A stretch of DNA of 34,482 nt from contig JAGNZZ010000025.1 of the NCBI GenBank assembly GCA_017984135.1, positions 1-34,482 of the forward strand, in the 5' to 3' direction. Of the stretch, positions 14,754 to 30,276 are shown piece after piece. Positions within the stretch are counted from its first letter, which is position 1. Each line of letters opens with the position of its first letter. Origin of the DNA: Chitinophagales bacterium. GTDB taxonomy: Bacteria; Bacteroidota; Bacteroidia; Chitinophagales; JADIYW01. The notes under the pieces are model-generated. The model was not told the origin of the DNA, ran no database searches, and was given only the letters and a program-made list of their open reading frames with translations. A program made the translations under genes and the position numbers.

Positions 14754-16733
14754 ATGATTAAGACAGCTCCAATTATCTTTACTATCGCTATTGTTTTAGT
14801 TTTATTTTCTTGTAAATCAGGTGCAAAAATTCAAGATGGTGAAACAGCCTATCAATACAAAAAGTATCTTTTGGCAGCTGATTTATTACAAAAAGATTTC
14901 TCCAAAGCAAAAACAACACAAGAGCAAACTAAAATTGCCTTGAAAATTGCCGATAGCTATGATAAACAATTAGACTATGCAAATGCGGAAAGCTGGTATA
15001 AGAAAATGGCTGACTTACGTGTTCAAAACGATGCTGTTTTTTTATATTTAAATGCATTAAAACGCAACGAAAAATATCAAGAAGCATTGTCTTATTTAGA
15101 TACGTATTTAAAAGCCAATAAAAGCGAGAAATTTAGATTACAAAAAGAATACGAATTCTTAGAAAATGTAATAAAAGAACAAAAAAAACGTGCATTAGTA
15201 AAATTAAATAATTTAAATTTTAATACAACAACTTTAGATTTTGCCCCATTTTTGAAAAAGGATATAATGTATATAACATCCACACAAACTTCCAAAAATG
15301 CAATGAAAGACGATTGGAGTGGACAGAATTATACAGATATATACGAAGTTAATAAAATAAATAATCACACATTTTCTTCTCCAATTGCATTGTCATCTCC
15401 TATAAATTCTGATTACCACGATGCAGAACTTGTTCTGTCAAAAAATGGAAAAATAGCCTATTTTACTAGATGTTTGCCTAAAGAAAAAAATACAAATGCG
15501 TATTGTCATATTTATAAAACTACCAAAAATATTGACGATACTTGGAGCGAACCAGAACGATTGGTTTTATTTGCTGATACCATTAACGAAGGGCAAGCGT
15601 ATTTGTCACCAGATGATAGTGAATTATATTTTGTTTCAGACAGTAAAGATGGTTATGGTGGAAAAGATATTTTTTTAGCAAAAATAAACAATGCTGGAAA
15701 TTATGAATATCCAATTAATGCTGGCTCAAAAGTGAATACACAAGGCGACGAATTATTTCCTGTTATTGCAACAGATAATAAATTGTATTTTTCTTCTAAT
15801 GGTAAAATTGGTTATGGTGGATTAGATATTTATATGGCAACCAAAGAAGGAAAAATATATACCAATGTCCAAAATTTAGGATATGGCATCAATAGTGGAG
15901 GCGATGATTTTAGTATGGCACTCATTAAGCCATCGGATGATTCCGTATTGTTATGTGGTTATTTAACTTCTAATCGAAAAGGTGGAAATGGATTGGATGA
16001 TATTTATTATTTTGAAAAACGTATGGCACCAGCAGAGCCATTGCCACCAGCTATTTTTGTATTGAAAACACTTGTTCAAACTAAAAAATATCAAAATGAA
16101 AACAATCCTAATTCTTTGTATTTAGGTTTGGTTCCAATCGATCAAGCAAATGTAGTGGTACATAACCTAGAGGAAGTAAAGTCAACGAATCAACCATTTC
16201 TGACAAATATTGAAGGTACTACACAAACTATTCTACCAAAAGGAAAAAACTATACTTTGAAAGTTTCAAAGTTTGGTTTTTTAGCAACAGAAGAAAATGT
16301 AACTACAAATTTACCGGCTAAAGATGGCGATACTATCATCATTCAAAAAACAATTACTTTAGATAAGATTTATCAAGATGTAGAAATTACCTTAAACAAT
16401 ATTTATTACGATTACAATAAATGGAATATACGTGCCGATGCTGCACAAAGTTTAGATACGTTGGTATTTATTCTTCAAAATAATCCAACTATAAAAATTC
16501 AACTTTCAGCCCATACCGATTGTAGAGGCAGTGATGTTTACAACCAAACATTGTCTCAAAAACGAGCTGAAAGTGTGGTACAATATCTAATCTCTAAAGG
16601 AATATCTACCAATCGTTTAACGGCAAAAGGCTATGGAGAAACAATGCCTATTGAAACATGTGTTTGCGAAAAATGCAACGATGAACAACATCAAATAAAT
16701 AGAAGAACCACGTTTAAAATTGTTAGCGAATAA
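14754..16733 (+). CDS. PorE-like OmpA-family lipoprotein (TPR, PD40 propeller, OmpA)
   Basis: A 659-residue envelope lipoprotein. Order of parts: signal peptide with lipobox at C20 (LVLFSC), TPR-like helices at about 25-150, a beta-propeller with PD40 motifs at about 170-430 (YLSPDDSELYFVSD, GGKDIFLA, GYGGLDIYMA), a degenerate carboxypeptidase-regulatory-like segment at about 450-530, and a C-terminal OmpA peptidoglycan-binding domain at about 540-659 (HTDCRGSDVYNQTLS, KRAESV, RLTAKGYGE). This is the architecture and length of PorE, a T9SS component that anchors the machinery to peptidoglycan. Bacteroidota often encode several such proteins, so a T9SS role is inferred. T9SS cargo genes elsewhere in the window fit. 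It has its own unit after the glnN terminator. Confidence 0.8.
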   Translation: MIKTAPIIFTIAIVLVLFSCKSGAKIQDGETAYQYKKYLLAADLLQKDFSKAKTTQEQTKIALKIADSYDKQLDYANAESWYKKMADLRVQNDAVFLYLNALKRNEKYQEALSYLDTYLKANKSEKFRLQKEYEFLENVIKEQKKRALVKLNNLNFNTTTLDFAPFLKKDIMYITSTQTSKNAMKDDWSGQNYTDIYEVNKINNHTFSSPIALSSPINSDYHDAELVLSKNGKIAYFTRCLPKEKNTNAYCHIYKTTKNIDDTWSEPERLVLFADTINEGQAYLSPDDSELYFVSDSKDGYGGKDIFLAKINNAGNYEYPINAGSKVNTQGDELFPVIATDNKLYFSSNGKIGYGGLDIYMATKEGKIYTNVQNLGYGINSGGDDFSMALIKPSDDSVLLCGYLTSNRKGGNGLDDIYYFEKRMAPAEPLPPAIFVLKTLVQTKKYQNENNPNSLYLGLVPIDQANVVVHNLEEVKSTNQPFLTNIEGTTQTILPKGKNYTLKVSKFGFLATEENVTTNLPAKDGDTIIIQKTITLDKIYQDVEITLNNIYYDYNKWNIRADAAQSLDTLVFILQNNPTIKIQLSAHTDCRGSDVYNQTLSQKRAESVVQYLISKGISTNRLTAKGYGETMPIETCVCEKCNDEQHQINRRTTFKIVSE

Positions 16734-20134: not shown

Positions 20135-20623
20135 TTAAAGTGGAATAGCATCATCGTAAACGATTTGCTTATCTTCTAATCCTGAAAATAAAAGCATGGC
20201 TGCCAATTGTCGCTGTGGTCGACGAAACAAGAGCATTAACGCTACACCAACAGCAATGAAAAAATGTAAATCATTGTGTGTTAAAAAATAAAATACAATA
20301 TTTAAAAACGCAACACCTTCTAAAATACTGATTTGTATTAAATGCGCAAATCTAAAAATAGTTAATTTTTCACCTAAAGTAAAAACAGCTAATGCTTCTT
20401 TTGTTTTCTTAAAAAATATAAAACGAGCAACGATAACACCAATGGCACCTACAACAATACCAATAATTTCCAATACTTGTTCACTCGGAAAATTTGGATT
20501 TGTTGAGTTTTGCTTCACAAATACTCTTGCGCCCGCAAGTATAAAAACCAACCCGAAACAAATGGCATAATGTAAAATATTCATCGTTTTAAAATAGGTT
20601 CCTACTGTTTGTGTTGATTGCAT
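20135..20623 (-). CDS. Conserved four-helix membrane protein
   Basis: A 162-residue inner-membrane protein with helices at about 15-34, 48-68, 97-115 and 119-135. The pattern matches an unnamed Bacteroidota family I recognise only by shape: LHYAICFG in helix 1, a basic FFKKTKEAL loop, an ISILEGVAFLNIVFYFLTHND segment, and LLFRRPQ after helix 4. It then has a soluble acidic C-terminus. No enzymatic motif is seen. It is monocistronic and convergent with rraA. I cannot assign a function. Confidence 0.6.
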   Translation of the reverse strand: MQSTQTVGTYFKTMNILHYAICFGLVFILAGARVFVKQNSTNPNFPSEQVLEIIGIVVGAIGVIVARFIFFKKTKEALAVFTLGEKLTIFRFAHLIQISILEGVAFLNIVFYFLTHNDLHFFIAVGVALMLLFRRPQRQLAAMLLFSGLEDKQIVYDDAIPL

Positions 20624-20773: not shown

Positions 20774-21526
20774 ATGAAAATAGATTTCTACAAGTTGAAT
20801 TTTATTGTTTTGCTTTTTGCAACAATCGTTTCTTGTAAAAAAGAAACAGAAGTAGTACAATTCGATTTTGGCTATAATTATTTTCCCGATGATTCAGGGA
20901 AATATGTCATCTACAAAGTGGATTCCGTTATTTTTAATGATTTTGATCCTTCCAATTTGAAACGTTTTTCTACTCAGTTTGTAAAAGAAATAGTAACAGA
21001 AGAATTTATTGACAATTTAGGTAGAAAAGCCAAAAAACTAGAAAGATATATAAGCACGGATACTACACAACCTTGGCAATTTTGGAATGTATGGTATTTT
21101 ATAAAAAACAAAACGAATGTAGAGCAAGTGGAAGATAATATTCGCTATGTAAAACTCATTTTTCCGTTAAAAATAGATGATTCTTGGCATGGCAATAAAT
21201 ATTTTGAAACCAATCACTTTCCATTTTTAGATTTAAGATATACCACCACCAATTTTGATTGGGAATATAAATTAACTGAAAAAGATGCACTCTATTCAAA
21301 TTTAAATTTTTCATCCGATTCAACATTAACGATTTTGCAAATTGCTGATTCGTCAAATGTACAAAAAGTATATAGCTTAGAACGATATTCAAGGAATGTA
21401 GGATTGGTTTATAAAGAATTATGGCGTTTAGATGCACAGCTTTTAAACGACACTCAAACGTATGAAAATAATTCAAAGTATGGATTTATTGTTTATCAAC
21501 GAGCAATAAGATTTGGTAAAGAATAA
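20774..21526 (+). CDS. Tandem-paralogue lipoprotein, copy 1
   Basis: A 250-residue lipoprotein starting at ATG 20774. Signal peptide and lipobox end at C21 (FATIVSC). The mature part begins with the motif FDFGYNYFPDDSG and VIYKVDSVIFNDFD and contains FIDNLGRKAKKLERY, an EQVEDNIRYVKLIFP segment and a FDWEYKLTEKD strand. The next gene has the same order of motifs, so this is a tandem duplication. I recognise this as an uncharacterised Bacteroidota family of exported beta-rich proteins without a catalytic motif. The last 14 coding bases overlap the likely start of copy 2. It heads a plus-strand cluster ending with the DUF4249 gene. Confidence 0.75.
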   Translation: MKIDFYKLNFIVLLFATIVSCKKETEVVQFDFGYNYFPDDSGKYVIYKVDSVIFNDFDPSNLKRFSTQFVKEIVTEEFIDNLGRKAKKLERYISTDTTQPWQFWNVWYFIKNKTNVEQVEDNIRYVKLIFPLKIDDSWHGNKYFETNHFPFLDLRYTTTNFDWEYKLTEKDALYSNLNFSSDSTLTILQIADSSNVQKVYSLERYSRNVGLVYKELWRLDAQLLNDTQTYENNSKYGFIVYQRAIRFGKE

Positions 21527-22280
21527 TTCTAATTTTAACGTGCGATTTTCGAAAAATATAATTGTCATTTATTTACCAATACTTTTTTTGGTCTTTGCAT
21601 GTGAGAAACAGATTGAATACAATGAATACGATTATGGCTACAATTATTTTCCCGATGATTCAGGAACCTTTGTTACCTATAAAGTCGATTCTATAATTTA
21701 TAACGATTTCGACCATTCCAGAAGGTACTCAACTATATATCTGAAAGAAAAAATAGGAGAGCAGTTTTTGGATAATTTAGGACGAAAATCGAAAAAAATT
21801 CTTCGCTATTATTCCGATTCATTATACAATGAATGGGAATTATACAATGTTGAATATTTCGTTAAAACTACACAATATTTGGAACGTGTAGAAGAAAACT
21901 TACGTTACATTAAGCTCGTCTTTCCAAATGATAAAAATTTAAAATGGTTGGGCAATAGATATATCACGATTCCACCACCATTTATTTTAGATTCTACTAA
22001 TTATTATTTAAACGATTGGAAATATACCATCAAAGAACGAGATAAATATTATGATAACGGTTTTAAAATTTTTGATTCAACTTTAATGGTCACACAAATT
22101 CAAGATTCAACAGCTATCTTTAAAACCTATTCGGTTGAAAAATTTGCTCGTAATATTGGATTGGTATATAAAGAATTTTGGATGGTAACTGGAGAAATTA
22201 ATATTGGATCGCCTTGGGAAGATAGAGCAGAAAAAGGTTTTATTTTAAGACAATACGCAATTGATTATGGCAAAGAATAA
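21513..22280 (+). CDS. Tandem-paralogue lipoprotein, copy 2 (non-ATG start)
   Basis: A 255-residue paralogue of the preceding gene: shared YDYGYNYFPDDSG, TYKVDSIIYNDFD, FLDNLGRKSKKILRY, ERVEENLRYIKLVFP and NIGLVYKEFW. No ATG precedes the signal peptide. The two possible starts are TTG at 21513, giving lipobox C30, and GTG at 21540, giving MRFSKNIIVIYLPILFLVFAC with lipobox C21. I list TTG because the protease gene starts at the homologous point of copy 2, overlapping its last 14 coding bases. Function is unknown. The conserved tail (Y/F)GKE before the stop supplies both overlapping starts. Confidence 0.7.
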   Translation: MVKNNSNFNVRFSKNIIVIYLPILFLVFACEKQIEYNEYDYGYNYFPDDSGTFVTYKVDSIIYNDFDHSRRYSTIYLKEKIGEQFLDNLGRKSKKILRYYSDSLYNEWELYNVEYFVKTTQYLERVEENLRYIKLVFPNDKNLKWLGNRYITIPPPFILDSTNYYLNDWKYTIKERDKYYDNGFKIFDSTLMVTQIQDSTAIFKTYSVEKFARNIGLVYKEFWMVTGEINIGSPWEDRAEKGFILRQYAIDYGKE

Positions 22281-23892
22281 AATTATATTTTTATTTTTTT
22301 TAGTGTTGTTTAATGTTATTTTGGCAAAGCCCAAACAAGATAAATTTATTGTCTATTTTAAAGATAAACCTGTGGACAAAAACGTAGAACGTTTATTTTC
22401 TAAAGAAGCGGTAGAATATAGAAAAAAATTTAATATTCCGGTTGATGAACGCGATTTTCCGGTAGATGTAAATTATATAGAACAACTAAAAAATGAACGT
22501 GCAACGATAATAAACACTTCGAATTGGTTAAATGCGTCTTTAATTTCAATAGATATAAAAAAGAGTCTAAAGATTCAGCAATTTCCATTTGTTTCAAATG
22601 TTATCAAAGTAGAAAAGAAAAAATTAGTAGGAATTTCTTCAACAAAACATATCACTGAATGCGTAGAAGCCAACGAGGTACAAGATTTCGAAGATAATTA
22701 TAACACATCCTTTCCACAAGTTCATTTATTAAATGGTGAATATTTACACGAACAAGGATTTAATGGTGAAAATATGACAATAGCCATTTGTGATAATGGA
22801 TTTTATCGTGCAGATTCAAATTTAGCATTTAAATCTTTATTTGATGAACATAGAATTTTAGGTACTTATGATTATGTACATAATGATTCACTGGTATATG
22901 ATGAATCTGGTGGTGTACATGGTTCTAATTGTTTATCCTTTATTGCCGCATTTAAGGATAGCCATTACATCGGTACAGCCACTAAATCCAACTTTTATTT
23001 ATTTCATACTGAAAATAATTCCAACGAACGATTGCAAGAAGAATTTAATTTAGCAGTTGCCTTAGAGCGCTGTTATCAATTGGGTGTAGATGTCGTAAGC
23101 ATTTCCTTAGGCTATACCACTTTTGATATTCCTTCAGAAAGTCATGACACGTCAGATTTTAGATTAAATAATACACCTGCTTCAAAAGCAGTAAATATTG
23201 CATCTTCCAAAGGAATGTTAGTTTGTGTTGCCGCAGGAAATGAAGGCGCAAAACCTTGGAAATATATCTCTTCACCAGCTGATGCAGATAGCGCATTTTG
23301 TATTGCTTCAGTAGATATCAATGGAAACGTGGCTACATCAAGTGGACATGGATTGCCAAATGATAGCAGAATTAAACCTAATATTGCCGCAGTGGGCGTT
23401 AATGCAAAATTCATTAATAGCATCGGAAATGTAGCTGTCGGAAATGGAACTTCTTATGCCACACCACAAATAGCTGGTCTTGCCGCTTGTTTATGGCAAG
23501 CATTTCCAACAAAAACAAATTGGGAAATAAAAACAGCAATAGAACAAAGTGCCTCACAATTTTTAACTCCAGACAAACGAATTGGATACGGCATTCCCGA
23601 TTTTAAAAAAGCGTATGATATTCTAACTACCACTACTTATGTATCAACACTAGAGCTTGAAAATAAGTTAACCATTTATCCAAATCCTGTTGGAAATATT
23701 TTAAACATACAAAATAATAGCAATTTAACCATTGAATCCATAACACTCTTAAATCACATTGGACAATTAATTTTCATCATAAATTCTACACAGCAAAGTA
23801 CAATAAATATAGAGTCGTTAGCAAGTGGATTATATTTATTGAAAATAAACACAGATAAAGGAATAGTCATAAAAAAAATAATTAAGGAATAA
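22267..23892 (+). CDS. S8 subtilisin-like protease with T9SS sorting domain
   Basis: A 541-residue exported serine protease. Signal peptide (FLVLFNVILA) is followed by a prodomain-like region to about residue 150, then the S8 domain with D176 (IAICDNGFYRAD), H218 (GGVHGSNCLSFIA), oxyanion N325 (VAAGNEGAKP) and nucleophile S396 (GNGTSYATPQIAG). The C-terminal domain (about 470-541: LTIYPNPVGNILN, LASGLYLLKIN, KIIKE) is a T9SS type A signal, so the mature enzyme should be released or surface-attached. The Asp motif is D-N-G rather than the more common D-(S/T)-G. ATG at 22267 overlaps copy 2 of the lipoprotein by 14 bases, so translation is probably coupled. Confidence 0.9.
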   Translation: MAKNKIIFLFFLVLFNVILAKPKQDKFIVYFKDKPVDKNVERLFSKEAVEYRKKFNIPVDERDFPVDVNYIEQLKNERATIINTSNWLNASLISIDIKKSLKIQQFPFVSNVIKVEKKKLVGISSTKHITECVEANEVQDFEDNYNTSFPQVHLLNGEYLHEQGFNGENMTIAICDNGFYRADSNLAFKSLFDEHRILGTYDYVHNDSLVYDESGGVHGSNCLSFIAAFKDSHYIGTATKSNFYLFHTENNSNERLQEEFNLAVALERCYQLGVDVVSISLGYTTFDIPSESHDTSDFRLNNTPASKAVNIASSKGMLVCVAAGNEGAKPWKYISSPADADSAFCIASVDINGNVATSSGHGLPNDSRIKPNIAAVGVNAKFINSIGNVAVGNGTSYATPQIAGLAACLWQAFPTKTNWEIKTAIEQSASQFLTPDKRIGYGIPDFKKAYDILTTTTYVSTLELENKLTIYPNPVGNILNIQNNSNLTIESITLLNHIGQLIFIINSTQQSTINIESLASGLYLLKINTDKGIVIKKIIKE

Positions 23893-23939
23893 TAGGAAGA
23901 CTGCTTTCAAGTGCTTATTTTTAATCCATTAAATTTTTC

Positions 23940-26321
23940 ATGAAAGCAGCCAATCTATTCTATTTTCTATTTCTGTTTCATTCATTCTTTTCATTCGCTC
24001 AAGAAGAAAAATATACCATTAGTGGATTTTTAAAAGACGCAAAAAATGGTGAAGTTTTAATAGGTGCCAATGTGGCGGTAAAAGGCAATCATGCATTAGG
24101 TGCCACCACCAATTTATATGGATTTTATTCTCTTTCATTGCCCAAAGGTATTTATCAAATTGAATATTCCTATATCGGATATTATACTCAAATCAAAGAA
24201 ATCAATTTAGATACAGATTTACGCATCAACCTTGAACTTTCTGATGATTCAAAAGCATTAGAAGAAGTAGTGATTACCAGCGAACGAAAAGATGAAAATG
24301 TTAAGAGTACGATAATGGGAAAAGAAGAACTTTCTACTGATCGAATAAAATCTATTCCGGCATTTATGGGTGAAGTAGATATTATAAAAGCCATTCAACT
24401 TATGCCAGGCGTACAAGCTGCCGGCGAAGGCAATTCCGGTATTTATGTACGTGGTGGTGGACCTGACCAAAATTTAGTTTTGTTAGATGATGCAATTGTA
24501 TATAATACCGGTCATTTATTTGGTTTTTTTTCCGTATTTAATGCCGATGCGGTGAAAAATACCACCTTATATAAAGGAGCGATGCCGGCCAATTTCGGCG
24601 GCCGACTTTCTTCCGTGATAGACATACAAATGAAAGAAGGAAATAATAAGCGTTTTGAAATGGAAGGTGGTATTGGAATCATTTCATCGAGGTTAACCAT
24701 AATGGCACCATTTAAAAAACCTAAATCTCCCAAAACAGCCAAAGGTTCTTTTTTGTTTTCTGGAAGAAGAACCTATTTGTTCGACATCGCTCAACCACTT
24801 TTAAAGAAAACTGATTTTGCAGGTACTAATTATTTTTTCTATGATATTAATTTAAAAGCCAACTATCAATTTTCCGATAAAGATAGATTGTATATCAGTG
24901 CCTATTTTGGCCGTGATGTGTTTGTGTATAATTCCACCAAAAATCAAACCAATGTAAAAATACCTTGGGGAAATGCCACCGCCACCGTTCGATACAATCA
25001 TTTGTTTAATGATAAATTATTTATGAATACCACTTTTGTATTTAATGATTATAATTTTAGTTTTTCAGGCAAACAAACTGATTTTGCTTTTAATGCATTT
25101 TCCGGCGTTCGTGATTTTAATGTAAAAATGGATTTAGATTATTATTTAAATACCAAACACAAATTAAAATTTGGCATGATGTACACGCATCATCGAATGA
25201 CACCAACACAAGCCAGCGCACGAAGTGGAGATACCGATTTTGAATCAAAAATTAATAAACGCTATTCACATGAATTGGCGTGGTATGTTGCACACGAATA
25301 TAACGTAAATGAAAAATTGAAATTTGATTTTGGTTTTAGATTGAGTATGTTCCAACATATTGGCCCATACCAAAAAGTACGTGGAGATCAGATCATTGGT
25401 TATGATACAATTTTTTATAAACGAAGTAAGCCAATAAAAACCTATGTTGGCCCTGAACCTCGTTTTGCCATGCGTTATGCGTTTGGAAATAATAATTCTA
25501 TAAAAGCAGGAATGGCATTAAACTACCAGTATATACACTTAGTTTCATCTTCAAATAGCACATTGCCCACGGATGTTTGGGTGCAAAGTTCGGGCATTGT
25601 AAAACCACAAATGGCAATGCAATATTCAGTAGGTTATTTTAGAAATTTTAAAGACAATATGTTTGAAACATCTATTGAAGTTTATTTTAAACATCTTTGG
25701 AATCAAATTGAATATGGTGAAAGTTATGTCAATGAATTAAATGTAGATCAAGAATTAGGTTATGTTTTTGGAAAAGGAAAAGCCTATGGAGCTGAATTTT
25801 TCTTAAAGAAACGAACCGGAAAATTAAACGGTTGGATTGGTTATACCATTTCGCGAAGCGATAGAAAATTTAAAGAATTAAATGAAGGCAAAGTGTTTCC
25901 TGCAAAATACGATAGAACACATGATTTGTCTATTAATATTAATTATGATATCAATAAAGAATGGAGCGTAGGTGCAACTTTTGTTTATGCAACAGGAAAT
26001 GCCATTACACCAGCCAATGCTTTGTCACTCATCGAATTTAATCCGATGATTGGTTACGCGTCGCGTAATTCATATCGAGTGCCGGCTTATCATAGAATGG
26101 ATGTTGCCTTAACATATACGCCAATTCCCAAACGCCGTCCAAACAGACGTTGGAAGTCGAGCTATAATATTTCAATATACAATGTATATAACCGCAAAAA
26201 CACGTATTTTATTTATAACAAAATAGAAGGAAGTACTTTAACCGGAAATTTAAAACAAACACCTATTAATGTTTCGTTGTTTCCTGTAATTCCTTCATTT
26301 ACTTGGAATTTTAAATTTTAA
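23940..26321 (+). CDS. TonB-dependent outer-membrane receptor with CTLD
   Basis: A 793-residue outer-membrane receptor. Signal peptide to about residue 20, then a carboxypeptidase-regulatory-like domain (ISGFLKDAKNGEVLIGANV to IEYSYIGY), a plug domain (SGIYVRGGGPDQNLVLLDDA, KGAMPANFGGRLSSVIDI), and a 22-strand-type barrel to the C-terminal Phe (FTWNFKF), the terminal aromatic signature of barrel proteins. Such receptors import ligands with TonB energy. No SusD partner follows; instead a DUF4249 lipoprotein starts 2 bases after the stop. That pairing is common in Bacteroidota and its substrates are mostly unknown. Protease genes on both sides suggest peptides, which is inference only. Confidence 0.93.
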   Translation: MKAANLFYFLFLFHSFFSFAQEEKYTISGFLKDAKNGEVLIGANVAVKGNHALGATTNLYGFYSLSLPKGIYQIEYSYIGYYTQIKEINLDTDLRINLELSDDSKALEEVVITSERKDENVKSTIMGKEELSTDRIKSIPAFMGEVDIIKAIQLMPGVQAAGEGNSGIYVRGGGPDQNLVLLDDAIVYNTGHLFGFFSVFNADAVKNTTLYKGAMPANFGGRLSSVIDIQMKEGNNKRFEMEGGIGIISSRLTIMAPFKKPKSPKTAKGSFLFSGRRTYLFDIAQPLLKKTDFAGTNYFFYDINLKANYQFSDKDRLYISAYFGRDVFVYNSTKNQTNVKIPWGNATATVRYNHLFNDKLFMNTTFVFNDYNFSFSGKQTDFAFNAFSGVRDFNVKMDLDYYLNTKHKLKFGMMYTHHRMTPTQASARSGDTDFESKINKRYSHELAWYVAHEYNVNEKLKFDFGFRLSMFQHIGPYQKVRGDQIIGYDTIFYKRSKPIKTYVGPEPRFAMRYAFGNNNSIKAGMALNYQYIHLVSSSNSTLPTDVWVQSSGIVKPQMAMQYSVGYFRNFKDNMFETSIEVYFKHLWNQIEYGESYVNELNVDQELGYVFGKGKAYGAEFFLKKRTGKLNGWIGYTISRSDRKFKELNEGKVFPAKYDRTHDLSININYDINKEWSVGATFVYATGNAITPANALSLIEFNPMIGYASRNSYRVPAYHRMDVALTYTPIPKRRPNRRWKSSYNISIYNVYNRKNTYFIYNKIEGSTLTGNLKQTPINVSLFPVIPSFTWNFKF

Positions 26322-26323
26322 AA

Positions 26324-27316
26324 ATGAGATTAAATACACGATTATATTATTCCTTAAGCTTGTTTTTTAGTGTGATGATTTCATTTTTCATCTTCACGGC
26401 ATGCGAGAAAGAAATCAAATTAAATATAAAAAACAACCCGAACGAAATTATTGTAGAAGGTCATATAGAAAATGGACTTCCACCTTATGTTATTCTCACA
26501 AAAAGTATTTCTTTGTATGATAATATCAACATCAATAAACTGGGAAATTTCTTTGTACATGGCGCAACTATAATAGTCAGTAATGGAAATGATTCCGTGC
26601 AATTAGTGGAATATAATTCAAGTATTCTACAAACTTTACCCGATTCGATTGCCATAGCATTGGCAGCACAATTCGGAATCCAAATAGATAGTGCCGGCGA
26701 TTTTCCAGATGTAAGTATTTATACTGTAGGCTTAACGGATACCAATTTTATAGGTGAAATTGGAAAACAATATGATTTACGAATTGATGTAGATAATCAA
26801 TATTTAACTTCCACTACGTCCATTCCTCAGCCGGTTTATTTTGATTCATTGTGGTTAATGCCGCATCCAAATGCTGCTTTTGCAGATTCATTTTTTCAGG
26901 TTTATGGTTGGTTAAAAGATCCACCTGCGTTTGGAAATTATTATCGTTATTTTACAAAAGCGGATAATCAACCATTTTTAATCAGCAGTCAATCTGTCTT
27001 TGATGATAATTTTTTCAACGGAAAAGCCTTTCAAATTTTTATTCCTAAAGGAAAACCTATTGGAAGTAATCCTTCAGATTTTAACTTCAATACAGATGGT
27101 TATTGGGATATTGCAGATTCTGTATGTACCGTAAAACTTTGTCAAATTGATAAAGCACATTATGATTTTTGGCGAACATTAGAAGCCAATCGCTCCAGTC
27201 AAGGAAATCCTTTTGGTTCTTTTGTATTGGTTAAATCCAATATAAAAGGAGGTAAAGGCGTTTGGGGTGGATATGGTAGCATAACTGGCAGTTATGTACG
27301 TGTTCCTTTGCCGTAA
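26324..27316 (+). CDS. DUF4249 lipoprotein, receptor partner
   Basis: A 330-residue lipoprotein with lipobox at C27 (FIFTACEKE). DUF4249 features are the N-terminal immunoglobulin-like stretch IIVEGHIENGLPPYVILTKS, the segment GKQYDLRIDVDNQYLTSTTS and IPQPVYFDS, and the C-terminal ANRSSQGNPFG and GGKGVWGGYGS. It begins 2 bases after the TonB-dependent receptor stop, so they are almost certainly co-translated. The family is thought to sit at the cell surface with the receptor, in a SusD-like arrangement, though it has no sequence similarity to SusD that I can see. The T- and A-rich sequence after the stop has no strong hairpin. Confidence 0.85.
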   Translation: MRLNTRLYYSLSLFFSVMISFFIFTACEKEIKLNIKNNPNEIIVEGHIENGLPPYVILTKSISLYDNININKLGNFFVHGATIIVSNGNDSVQLVEYNSSILQTLPDSIAIALAAQFGIQIDSAGDFPDVSIYTVGLTDTNFIGEIGKQYDLRIDVDNQYLTSTTSIPQPVYFDSLWLMPHPNAAFADSFFQVYGWLKDPPAFGNYYRYFTKADNQPFLISSQSVFDDNFFNGKAFQIFIPKGKPIGSNPSDFNFNTDGYWDIADSVCTVKLCQIDKAHYDFWRTLEANRSSQGNPFGSFVLVKSNIKGGKGVWGGYGSITGSYVRVPLP

Positions 27317-27430: not shown

Positions 27431-28969
27431 TTATTTTTGAATGATTATTTTTTCAAATGCTTGAACATCTTCATTCATTAGTTTTAGAAAATAAATTCCA
27501 TTTGAAAATGATTGTGTATTAATGGAAAAGGTAGAAGTGTATTTTGGAATTAAATGAGATGAAATCATTTTACCACTAATATCGATGAGTTGATAAGTAA
27601 TATCTGTTGAATTTGGTTTTTGAAATTCAACCATAAAAATATTTTGTGCCGGATTTGGATACATATTAATACCCATCTCTTTTATAGAAATATTTTTGAT
27701 AGGCGTTGTCGTATTTTCTTCCACTTCTCTTTTGGTAATTAAGTTACCTCTACGTGTAATTAAATTAAATCGCATTAAGTTGACCTGCTGTTTGGTGAAT
27801 AAATTATAACATAAATCAGTGGAATAATTCATGTAATTTTCAAACATATCCGGCCAATCTCTTCCTAAATAATTTTTAGTACAAGTATTAATGGTGGAAT
27901 CGCATGGATTTAAAGTACCTCGAACTAAATTACTGGCAAATGCAGATGCTTCTTCAGGAGTGTCATCAATGAAATCATCAATTTCACATCCATTATCAAA
28001 TCCAGGAATTGGCAATACATTTCCCCAACTATGTTGTAAACCTAAATAATGACCCATTTCATGAACGGTGGAACGTCCTTGCGTATAAAAATCTCTGAAA
28101 CGTTGTGTGGTAGAATCTTGCGCATACCAATTGTTTTGTCCAAAAAAACGAAAATCAATTACAATACCATCATACTTTCCATGATCTAAAGCTAATGGTC
28201 CCCAATTCGTAGCATTCGATGGAGGATAGGCAAAACCGCCAAGTGCACCGCAAGTGTCACATAAGGTCAAACAAGTATTACATTTTCTATTTGAATAATT
28301 TAAATCACATACATATAGGTTTAAATATTTATTTGCCGGCCAAGGCGATTTTCCTTTAGAATTGGTTAATAAAAAGTAATCTTCTTTTAATGGTTCTACA
28401 CCTAATGCAGTCCAGATTACGTTATTTAATGGATCCCAACCTTTTAAATTTCCTAATTCTCCTTTTGTTCTAGTAATGCCTGTAGTTGCTGCGCCATTTG
28501 GCGCTTTCTTTGCTAATTCAAATTTAATTTTTGCATTACCTCTAAAAGGAACAAAAAATGCTCTTAAGTTAGAAGTGTCTGCATTTAATAAATTAAAATC
28601 TCTATTCAACGCATCTATTTGAGATTGTATAATGGCATCAGGAACATTTTCATATTTATTATTGTTTAAATACACAACATGCACTACAACTTGAATAGTA
28701 TAAGTTGTATCTGTATTGGCGATGCTGCTGTCGTACGATACAATATTAGTAATCTCATTTCCAATTTCTCTACGAAAAGCATCTGAAATAGAAGCATTAG
28801 ACTGTATGGCCTGAGTCGTGATTTCGTCTAAAGCACATCGATGTACAATATCTTGAGCTTGAATGGCTAATACATTAGAAATGAAAAAAATAAAAAGACA
28901 AAACTTAATGCTAATTTTAGTGAATATAAAATTTAATTTTATTTTTGAGCGATGCTTACTTATTTTCAT
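27431..28969 (-). CDS. M43 (pappalysin-type) metalloprotease with T9SS sorting domain
   Basis: A 512-residue exported zinc protease. ATG at 28969 gives a basic start, then a hydrophobic signal segment ending LAIQAQ. The prodomain has IQVVVHVVY. The catalytic site is HEMGHYLGLQH (H303, E304, H307, H313) with the Met-turn at M380 (ENYMNYS). The C-terminal T9SS type A domain (about 435-512) shows INMYPNPAQNIF, SNGIYFLKLM and KIIIQK. Residues 221-240 hold five cysteines, including CNTCLTLCDTC; comparable M43 proteases have only a short turn there. An upstream in-frame start at 29032 overlaps the divergent gene and would displace the signal peptide, so it was rejected. It is convergent with the receptor cluster. 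Confidence 0.9.
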   Translation of the reverse strand: MKISKHRSKIKLNFIFTKISIKFCLFIFFISNVLAIQAQDIVHRCALDEITTQAIQSNASISDAFRREIGNEITNIVSYDSSIANTDTTYTIQVVVHVVYLNNNKYENVPDAIIQSQIDALNRDFNLLNADTSNLRAFFVPFRGNAKIKFELAKKAPNGAATTGITRTKGELGNLKGWDPLNNVIWTALGVEPLKEDYFLLTNSKGKSPWPANKYLNLYVCDLNYSNRKCNTCLTLCDTCGALGGFAYPPSNATNWGPLALDHGKYDGIVIDFRFFGQNNWYAQDSTTQRFRDFYTQGRSTVHEMGHYLGLQHSWGNVLPIPGFDNGCEIDDFIDDTPEEASAFASNLVRGTLNPCDSTINTCTKNYLGRDWPDMFENYMNYSTDLCYNLFTKQQVNLMRFNLITRRGNLITKREVEENTTTPIKNISIKEMGINMYPNPAQNIFMVEFQKPNSTDITYQLIDISGKMISSHLIPKYTSTFSINTQSFSNGIYFLKLMNEDVQAFEKIIIQK

Positions 28970-29020
28970 GTTCGATATTTTTATTGAAAATTTATTTTGA
29001 TATAAAAAATAATACGTTTT

Positions 29021-29818
29021 ATGATTACCCATATAATCAAAGATAAATCTACGAAATTATTTATTTTTTTAGGTGGATTTTTTATCGCCAATGCATTTAT
29101 TGCAGAAGTTATTGGCGTTAAAATCTTTTCTTTGGAAGATACCATAGGAATAACACCTTTTCAAATTCCACTTTTTGGAAATACATTTTCTTTTAATCTT
29201 ACTGCTGGTGTGCTTTTGTGGCCAGTGGTTTTTATAATGACCGATATTATTAATGAATACTATGGAAAAAAAGGAGTGAAGTTTTTGTCATACTTAACGG
29301 TTGGTTTATTGGGTTATGCATTTTTTATGTATTATTTTGCCATTCATTTAGTGCCGGCTACGTGGTGGCCTGGTTCACGAGTTGAACAAGGTGTTCCAAA
29401 TATGCAAGCGGCATACAGTCAAGTTTTTGGACAAGGTTTAGCCATTATTTTAGCCTCTTTAATCGCATTTTTAATTGGTCAAATAGTAGATGTTTTTATT
29501 TTTCAAAAAATAAAAAAATGGAGTGGTGAAAAACATATCTGGCTGCGTGCTACCGGTTCTACATTGGTATCTCAGTTTATAGATAGTTTTGTGGTATTGC
29601 TAATTGCTTTCTATATTTTTCCTAAATATGTGAGTGATGCCAATGGAAAAGCATGGCCGTTTACTTTGGTTATGTCTATTTGTATTGGAAATTATATTTA
29701 TAAATTTATAGTAGCCATTGTGTTAACACCTGTAATTTACCTCATTCATTATTGGATAGAAAAATATTTAGGTCATGAATTGGCTACCGAAATGAAACTA
29801 AATGCCATTGAAGAATAA
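29021..29818 (+). CDS. yhhQ: Queuosine precursor transporter (VUT family, YhhQ)
   Basis: A 265-residue inner-membrane protein with about six or seven helices. The VUT/YhhQ family imports queuosine precursors such as preQ0 and preQ1 for tRNA modification. Signatures are the N-terminal NAFIAEVIGVKI, FIMTDIINEYYGKKG, a QVFGQGLAIILASLIAFLIG helix, RATGSTLVSQFIDSFVVLL and a final helix after MSICIGNYIYKFIVA. Length is normal. A 7-pair hairpin (29809-29828) spans its stop without a T tract. No queuosine genes are adjacent and no preQ1 riboswitch was recognised upstream, so the substrate is inferred from family. Confidence 0.88.
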   Translation: MITHIIKDKSTKLFIFLGGFFIANAFIAEVIGVKIFSLEDTIGITPFQIPLFGNTFSFNLTAGVLLWPVVFIMTDIINEYYGKKGVKFLSYLTVGLLGYAFFMYYFAIHLVPATWWPGSRVEQGVPNMQAAYSQVFGQGLAIILASLIAFLIGQIVDVFIFQKIKKWSGEKHIWLRATGSTLVSQFIDSFVVLLIAFYIFPKYVSDANGKAWPFTLVMSICIGNYIYKFIVAIVLTPVIYLIHYWIEKYLGHELATEMKLNAIEE

Positions 29819-29871: not shown

Positions 29872-30276
29872 TTATTCCGTTACTCTGTTTAATTTATAGT
29901 CAATTACTTCTAGAGGTTTTTTTCCTTTATAATTTGGATTATTAAATTCTGAATAATAAAGTGAAAAACACAAACCTCGCAATCCAAGATTTAATTGTCG
30001 TAAGTTGGAAGGTAGAAAGCCATCACTAGGATTGTATTGAGCATTTCTACAAATATTGATAATCCATGATAAAATGCCATTAGGTAAAAAAGAAAAGATA
30101 GCTAATACTAAACTAAGTGAAGAAAAGTCATCTTCTGGAACATTCCTTACTAAGTTATTCAAATAGGCTGTTCCGGCAACTTCTTTAAAGGATGGAAATT
30201 CGCCATTTTTTGGACAGTATATTTCACCTACGGCTAATAATCCTTTTGTGGCTCTAGTTGAAAAAAAGTTAGACAT
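29872..30276 (-). CDS. Small companion protein of the GMC oxidoreductase
   Basis: A 134-residue protein I do not recognise at sequence level. It has no signal peptide, a mid-protein hydrophobic segment (SSLSLVLAIFSFLPNG), and a C-terminal basic tail (NPNYKGKKPLEVIDYKL). It lies 52 bases after the GMC oxidoreductase on the same strand, so the two probably form one transcript. Several membrane-bound GMC dehydrogenases have a small subunit 3 needed for folding or export, and this protein could play such a role. It lacks a twin-arginine signal, however, and shows no clear family motif, so this is context-based inference. Confidence 0.5.
   Translation of the reverse strand: MSNFFSTRATKGLLAVGEIYCPKNGEFPSFKEVAGTAYLNNLVRNVPEDDFSSLSLVLAIFSFLPNGILSWIINICRNAQYNPSDGFLPSNLRQLNLGLRGLCFSLYYSEFNNPNYKGKKPLEVIDYKLNRVTE

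Follow-up and report, generated by a model that had tools for sequence, protein, structure and literature searches.

A lipoprotein family (LP) that, judged from its sequences, is undescribed stands directly before a subtilisin-family peptidase (S8) exported by the type IX secretion system (T9SS) in many genomes of the order Chitinophagales, and this tandem recurs beyond chance. We studied it on one complete contig of 34,482 nucleotides (hereafter the window) from a 2.6 Mb genome, whose closest named relatives are Chitinophagales metagenome bins. In our preferred explanation, to which we give roughly an even chance, the genes form two housekeeping surface modules lying side by side, and LP acts on or with S8 at the cell surface. 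The features are as follows, with assignments from Pfam/NCBIfam where so marked.

20774-21526, + strand: LP1, lipoprotein, a derived tandem copy of the LP family; lipobox ..IVSC, then KKETE
21540-22280, + strand: LP2, lipoprotein in the ancestral position immediately upstream of S8; GTG start at 21540 preferred over TTG at 21513
22267-22280, + strand: overlap of the LP2 stop and the S8 start, 14 bases, ATGGCAAAGAATAA; conserved within its own family and in a second family of the class
22267-23892, + strand: S8, subtilisin-family peptidase and T9SS cargo, ATG start; S8 and Por_Secre_tail domains (Pfam/NCBIfam)
22336-22629, + strand: S8 residues 24-121, subtilisin-type propeptide of I9-like fold (model against 1scj chain B)
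23674-23883, + strand: C-terminal T9SS sorting domain of S8 (Pfam/NCBIfam and model alignment)
23940-26321, + strand: TonB-dependent receptor (TBDR) with CarbopepD_reg_2 and Plug domains, a core gene of the order (Pfam/NCBIfam)
26324-27316, + strand: DUF4249 lipoprotein, predicted lid of TBDR (Pfam/NCBIfam)
27431-29032, - strand: M43 metallopeptidase with Por_Secre_tail and zinc motif HEMGHYLGLQH, a neighbour outside the conserved cluster (Pfam/NCBIfam)

The layout given in the earlier note stands for the gene identities, their order, the 14-base overlap of LP2 and S8, the gap of 47 bases between S8 and TBDR and the gap of 2 bases between TBDR and DUF4249, but not for a 14-base overlap of LP1 and LP2. 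The latter requires LP2 to start at the TTG at 21513, whereas a start at the GTG at 21540 gives LP2 a 20-residue signal peptide ahead of the lipobox Cys. Because this matches the relatives, in which LP2 begins 12-38 bases downstream of the LP1 stop, LP2 probably starts at GTG 21540 and the two genes probably do not overlap. Both LPs end in (Y/F)GKE-stop, and the corresponding DNA, ...TGGxAAAGAATAA, holds the ATG of S8 at the end of LP2 and the TTG at the end of LP1; since the same motif carries the S8 start at the LP2 end, TTG 21513 looks like a relic of duplication. Most simply, LP1 would have arisen by a tandem duplication that took in the LP/S8 junction. The two are paralogues with 47% identity, five of the eight genomes of the genus carry a second LP copy, and in the LP tree LP1 forms a separate clade inside the genus, while LP2 clusters with single-copy LPs from sister species. 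According to the same tree, LP was tandemly duplicated independently in another family (L058:6452-8018, genome G023). As for transcription signals, the Bacteroidota promoter motif (TTG then TAnnTTTG) was found in none of the intergenic stretches, a scan for sigma-70-type promoters returned 49 sites against 39 expected, and the gaps between the genes held no terminator-like sites.

The pairing of LP and S8 was followed in an order sample of 61 genomes from 22 families (G019, G027 and G029 being only 57-83% complete) and a phylum sample of 247 genomes. In the order sample, 51 genomes carry both genes, six LP alone, four S8 alone and none neither, with the absence of LP from G017, G022, G027 and G050 checked by an LP family profile; across the 61 genomes, presence and absence gave no signal of co-loss. 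In 34 of the 51 genomes with both, representing 13 of the 22 families, S8 comes next after LP on one strand; in two further genomes the genes are adjacent but convergent, and in 17 of the 51 they are out of tandem. Outside the order, the pair is kept in four more families of the class (f27-f30). Genomes that share ancestry cannot be treated as separate events, and a tally of families is fairer; it is from the 13 families inside the order and the four outside it that we conclude that the tandem exceeds chance. In the phylum sample, with an S8 cut-off of E<1e-140 and both the S8 and the LP cut-offs set after the scores were seen, 37 genomes have a strict S8 orthologue, 22 a strong LP and 15 both, and the genes are in tandem in 14 of these 15. 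The way in which the two genes meet is also conserved: the 14-base overlap recurs across most members of the own family and in three genomes of another family (L109, L116 and L118), and a 4-base ATGA overlap is found at L058, L067, L074, L077 and L108. The earlier note had supposed a lipoprotein-subtilisin coupling, and as a conserved pair with overlapping genes this was confirmed. The finding that the note had named as refuting its locus, lipoprotein homologues unaccompanied by S8 or a receptor, was also made, in the 17 genomes with LP and S8 out of tandem and the six with LP but no detected S8.

These exceptions bear on a different explanation, in which LP is an envelope protein with its own function, and its place beside S8 is mainly inherited gene order, with a transcript shared through its position between mnmA and S8. 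LP is near-universal and mostly single-copy in the order, it stays beside mnmA with no S8 detected at L119 and L123, and a paralogue lies without S8 at L113. Moreover, LP is kept in complete genomes in which S8 was not detected (G030, G032, G045, G146 and G216), so it may have a role of its own. Against it stand the 14 tandem genomes of the phylum sample, which include the own family and families without an adjacent mnmA (L109-L112 and L116-L118), and the overlaps of 14 or 4 bases that persist between families. We consider this explanation possible but somewhat doubtful. Conversely, S8 without LP is found in G017, G022 and G050 and in 22 genomes of families f24, f25 and f31, which means that the pairing is not obligatory.

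The evolutionary rate of LP was compared with several cuts. Terminal LP branches are longer in genomes lacking S8 (p 0.0005, uncorrected for kinship, with groups assigned by hand and two of the six genomes incomplete). When scaled to MnmA, the LP rate is not significantly higher where S8 was lost (p ~0.15, the LP row of G034 being a 28-residue fragment), and a residual test of LP rate against TBDR scores detected no significant effect of S8 loss.

The surroundings of mnmA offer a glimpse of the ancestry of the pair. In 16 genomes of a presumably Flavobacteriales-like family, S8 follows mnmA without LP (at L152, a locus of this family, mnmA looks split in the ORF call), whereas the order mnmA-LP or mnmA-LP-S8 is seen at L114, L115, L119, L120 and L123 and at several loci of the order. 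For this reason mnmA-S8 looks like the older arrangement, into which LP would have been inserted, although LP may instead have been lost in the other lineages. In the genus studied here, mnmA no longer adjoins LP-S8.

What kind of protein is LP? Its genes are about 740-753 bp long and encode about 230 mature residues, and searches of Pfam, NCBIfam and PDB sequences returned no match passing a cut-off. An alignment of 40 LP sequences shows the lipobox Cys and a few other invariant residues, namely G42, P129, W136 and G207 in LP2 numbering. The AlphaFold2 model of LP2, built from 11 sequences, is all-beta, with a mean pLDDT of 48 that is too poor for fold comparison, and at this quality it had no meaningful structural match in the PDB. 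After the lipobox Cys, LPs typically read K-K-E-(T/S)-(E/D) and the DUF4249 protein reads E-K-E-I. These starts (C-x-K-E) resemble C-X-K-(D/E)2-X, the signal for surface export that was defined in Capnocytophaga (PMC5080379), which suggests that both LP and the DUF4249 protein may be surface-exposed; such signals vary among groups of Bacteroidota.

The catalytic residues of S8, D176, H218 and S396, and the oxyanion N325 are invariant across 21 orthologues, and the T9SS sorting tail was detected in 20 of these. The same genome encodes the T9SS (SprA_N match, E 1.4e-149), and 33 of its proteins exceed the family cut-off for the sorting tail. Built from six sequences, the AlphaFold2 model of S8 has low overall quality (pLDDT 52); within it, residues 24-114 were modelled as a beta-alpha-beta-beta-alpha-beta unit with block-mean pLDDT of about 50-87. 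This N-terminal unit superposes on the subtilisin propeptide 1scj_B (Z 9.8, rmsd 3.9, 69 of 71 residues), and the C-terminal part matches two T9SS sorting domains, 8gl6_D (Z 9.7) and that of mirolase, 8qb1_C (Z 9.0). In genus g3, the S8 that follows LP is short, at about 455-460 residues (L046:9940-11307 and L048:9703-11106); the L046 protein is the single orthologue of the 21 without a detected sorting tail, and LP is kept there nonetheless.

The presence of a propeptide is relevant to another proposal, that LP is a folding or secretion chaperone required by the subtilisin. Overlapping genes with LP in first place would suit such a role. However, with an I9-like propeptide of its own S8 should be able to fold without LP, and S8 persists without LP in many genomes; on both counts LP is probably not an obligatory chaperone. 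The suggestion, made in the earlier note, is weakened accordingly, and we regard it as highly improbable.

The second module consists of TBDR, a receptor of 793 residues with weak N-terminal similarity to RagA, and the DUF4249 lipoprotein. Best TBDR matches outside the own family are mostly full-length, with 42-55% identity among the order genomes, and by inspection DUF4249 lies directly downstream of the best match in about 45 of 60. Relatives at 34-50% identity, recognised by similarity, occur in most sampled genomes of the class. DUF4249 proteins have been proposed as partners, or lids, of BT2172-type transporters, and disruption of either gene has similar effects (PMC11003636). From their domains and adjacency, TBDR and DUF4249 are expected to form a transporter and its lid, with the lid and import functions being predicted. 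Pfam and NCBIfam searches gave no match to a SusD-family lipoprotein beside TBDR, the adjacent lipoproteins being LP and DUF4249.

The idea from which this analysis started was a dedicated locus for protein utilisation; in its full form, S8 would cut proteins, the lipoproteins would bind the products, TBDR-DUF4249 would import them and all would be regulated jointly. Several of its elements were upheld, namely the LP-S8 pair, DUF4249 as a lid partner and the LP-S8-TBDR order in several families. The genes run head to tail in this genus, TBDR follows S8 at a distance of up to about 2 kb in 18 genomes from six of the 22 families (three of these genomes, G017, G022 and G050, being without LP), and the resemblance of the receptor N-terminus to RagA points the same way. 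The dedicated locus itself was not borne out. LP is present in 57 of the 61 order genomes and additionally in the four other families of the class, S8 in 55 (match E<=1e-10) and TBDR in 60 (match E<=1e-80), which marks them as core genes rather than an accessory locus; LP, S8, TBDR and DUF4249 are all core genes of the order, each with a separate history. Across the class, S8 and TBDR are both widespread, and they are usually encoded apart, as they are in the remaining order families, although both are present. Furthermore, identity to the genus relatives is 78-93% for TBDR, against 50-63% for S8, 53-72% for LP2 and 61-74% for LP1 (DUF4249, 54-82%), and since TBDR is more conserved than S8 or LP, a general ligand fits better. 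With TBDR relatives found class-wide, SusD lacking and M43 not conserved, we judge a true utilisation locus to be unlikely.

The M43 protease, which the earlier note had placed in the locus, was rejected as a member: in five genus relatives (L040-L044) the contig extends beyond DUF4249, and none of them has an M43 gene next to it. Its N-terminal region, ...DIVHRCALDEIT..., contains a possible cysteine-switch latency segment like the one reported for mirolysin, and the first ATG of the gene overlaps a divergent gene at 29021. Elsewhere in the window, 14754-16733 (+ strand) encodes an OmpA/PD40 protein related to the PorE-family T9SS proteins and the CHU_0125-family integrity proteins (NCBIfam E 2e-111 and 2e-138, respectively, both below curated cut-offs), which may be an envelope component of the T9SS. 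A membrane protein of 162 residues, for which no family match passed a cut-off, is encoded divergently from LP1 (20135-20623, - strand), and six genus relatives (L038-L043) retain its gene upstream of their LP genes. A 134-residue protein at 29872-30276 (- strand) has no match in Pfam or NCBIfam.

We return to two housekeeping modules. The first would be a T9SS-exported subtilisin whose gene, in many of the lineages of the class, follows mnmA; Chitinophagales and some sister lineages have an LP gene just before it, overlapping, and the lipoprotein would be made just ahead of the protease. LP would most likely be located at the outer surface of the outer membrane and act there on or with S8 as a guard, tether or inhibitor, and in this genus it has been duplicated. 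The second would be the class-wide TBDR with its DUF4249 lid, a downstream neighbour of S8 in some families, which may import peptides or another small ligand. A narrower version, that a new outer-membrane lipoprotein family, core to the order and found also in sister groups, is the dedicated surface guard or regulator of a core T9SS subtilisin through translational coupling, can be offered only tentatively. In other words, the region seems to be mostly ordinary housekeeping and not a specialised nutrient locus, and a partnership of LP and S8 is plausible within it. To our knowledge, the control of their own surface proteases by T9SS bacteria is known mainly from one oral genus. If our reading is true, LP-S8 would be the housekeeping counterpart of protease-inhibitor pairs reported to date from that genus, and an undescribed core family coupled to an ancient subtilisin would offer a general and easily tested case of surface-protease control.

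Three known systems invite comparison. Like SusCD/RagAB, the second module combines a surface lipoprotein with a TonB-dependent receptor, but its receptor is shorter than RagA (997 residues) and its lipoprotein is not of the SusD family. It also resembles BT2172-BT2173, a conserved operon in which a TBDR gene is directly followed by a DUF4249 lipoprotein gene (PMC11003636), with the difference that the pair here sits downstream of LP-S8 in some families. For LP-S8, the parallel is in Tannerella forsythia, which has six KLIKK proteases, three of them serine proteases, exported by the T9SS (PMC4404884, PMC7296668). A lipoprotein gene precedes every KLIKK protease gene (PMC4404884), and these lipoproteins, the potempins, were reported from then-unpublished data to inhibit specifically the protease encoded downstream (PMC7296668). 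Here, too, the LP gene directly precedes a T9SS protease gene, and in our best reading S8 would have in LP a surface partner specific to these lineages, which would serve as guard, tether or inhibitor in the manner of the potempins. The systems also differ: (i) potempin genes measure 360-550 bp (PMC4404884) and are thus smaller than the LP genes; (ii) S8 ends in ...GIVIKKIIKE, whereas the KLIKK proteases end in KLIKK with a near-identical C-terminal domain; and (iii) compared by description, potempins are small, mutually unrelated and strain-variable, whereas LP is one vertically inherited family that stands before one core subtilisin across many families.
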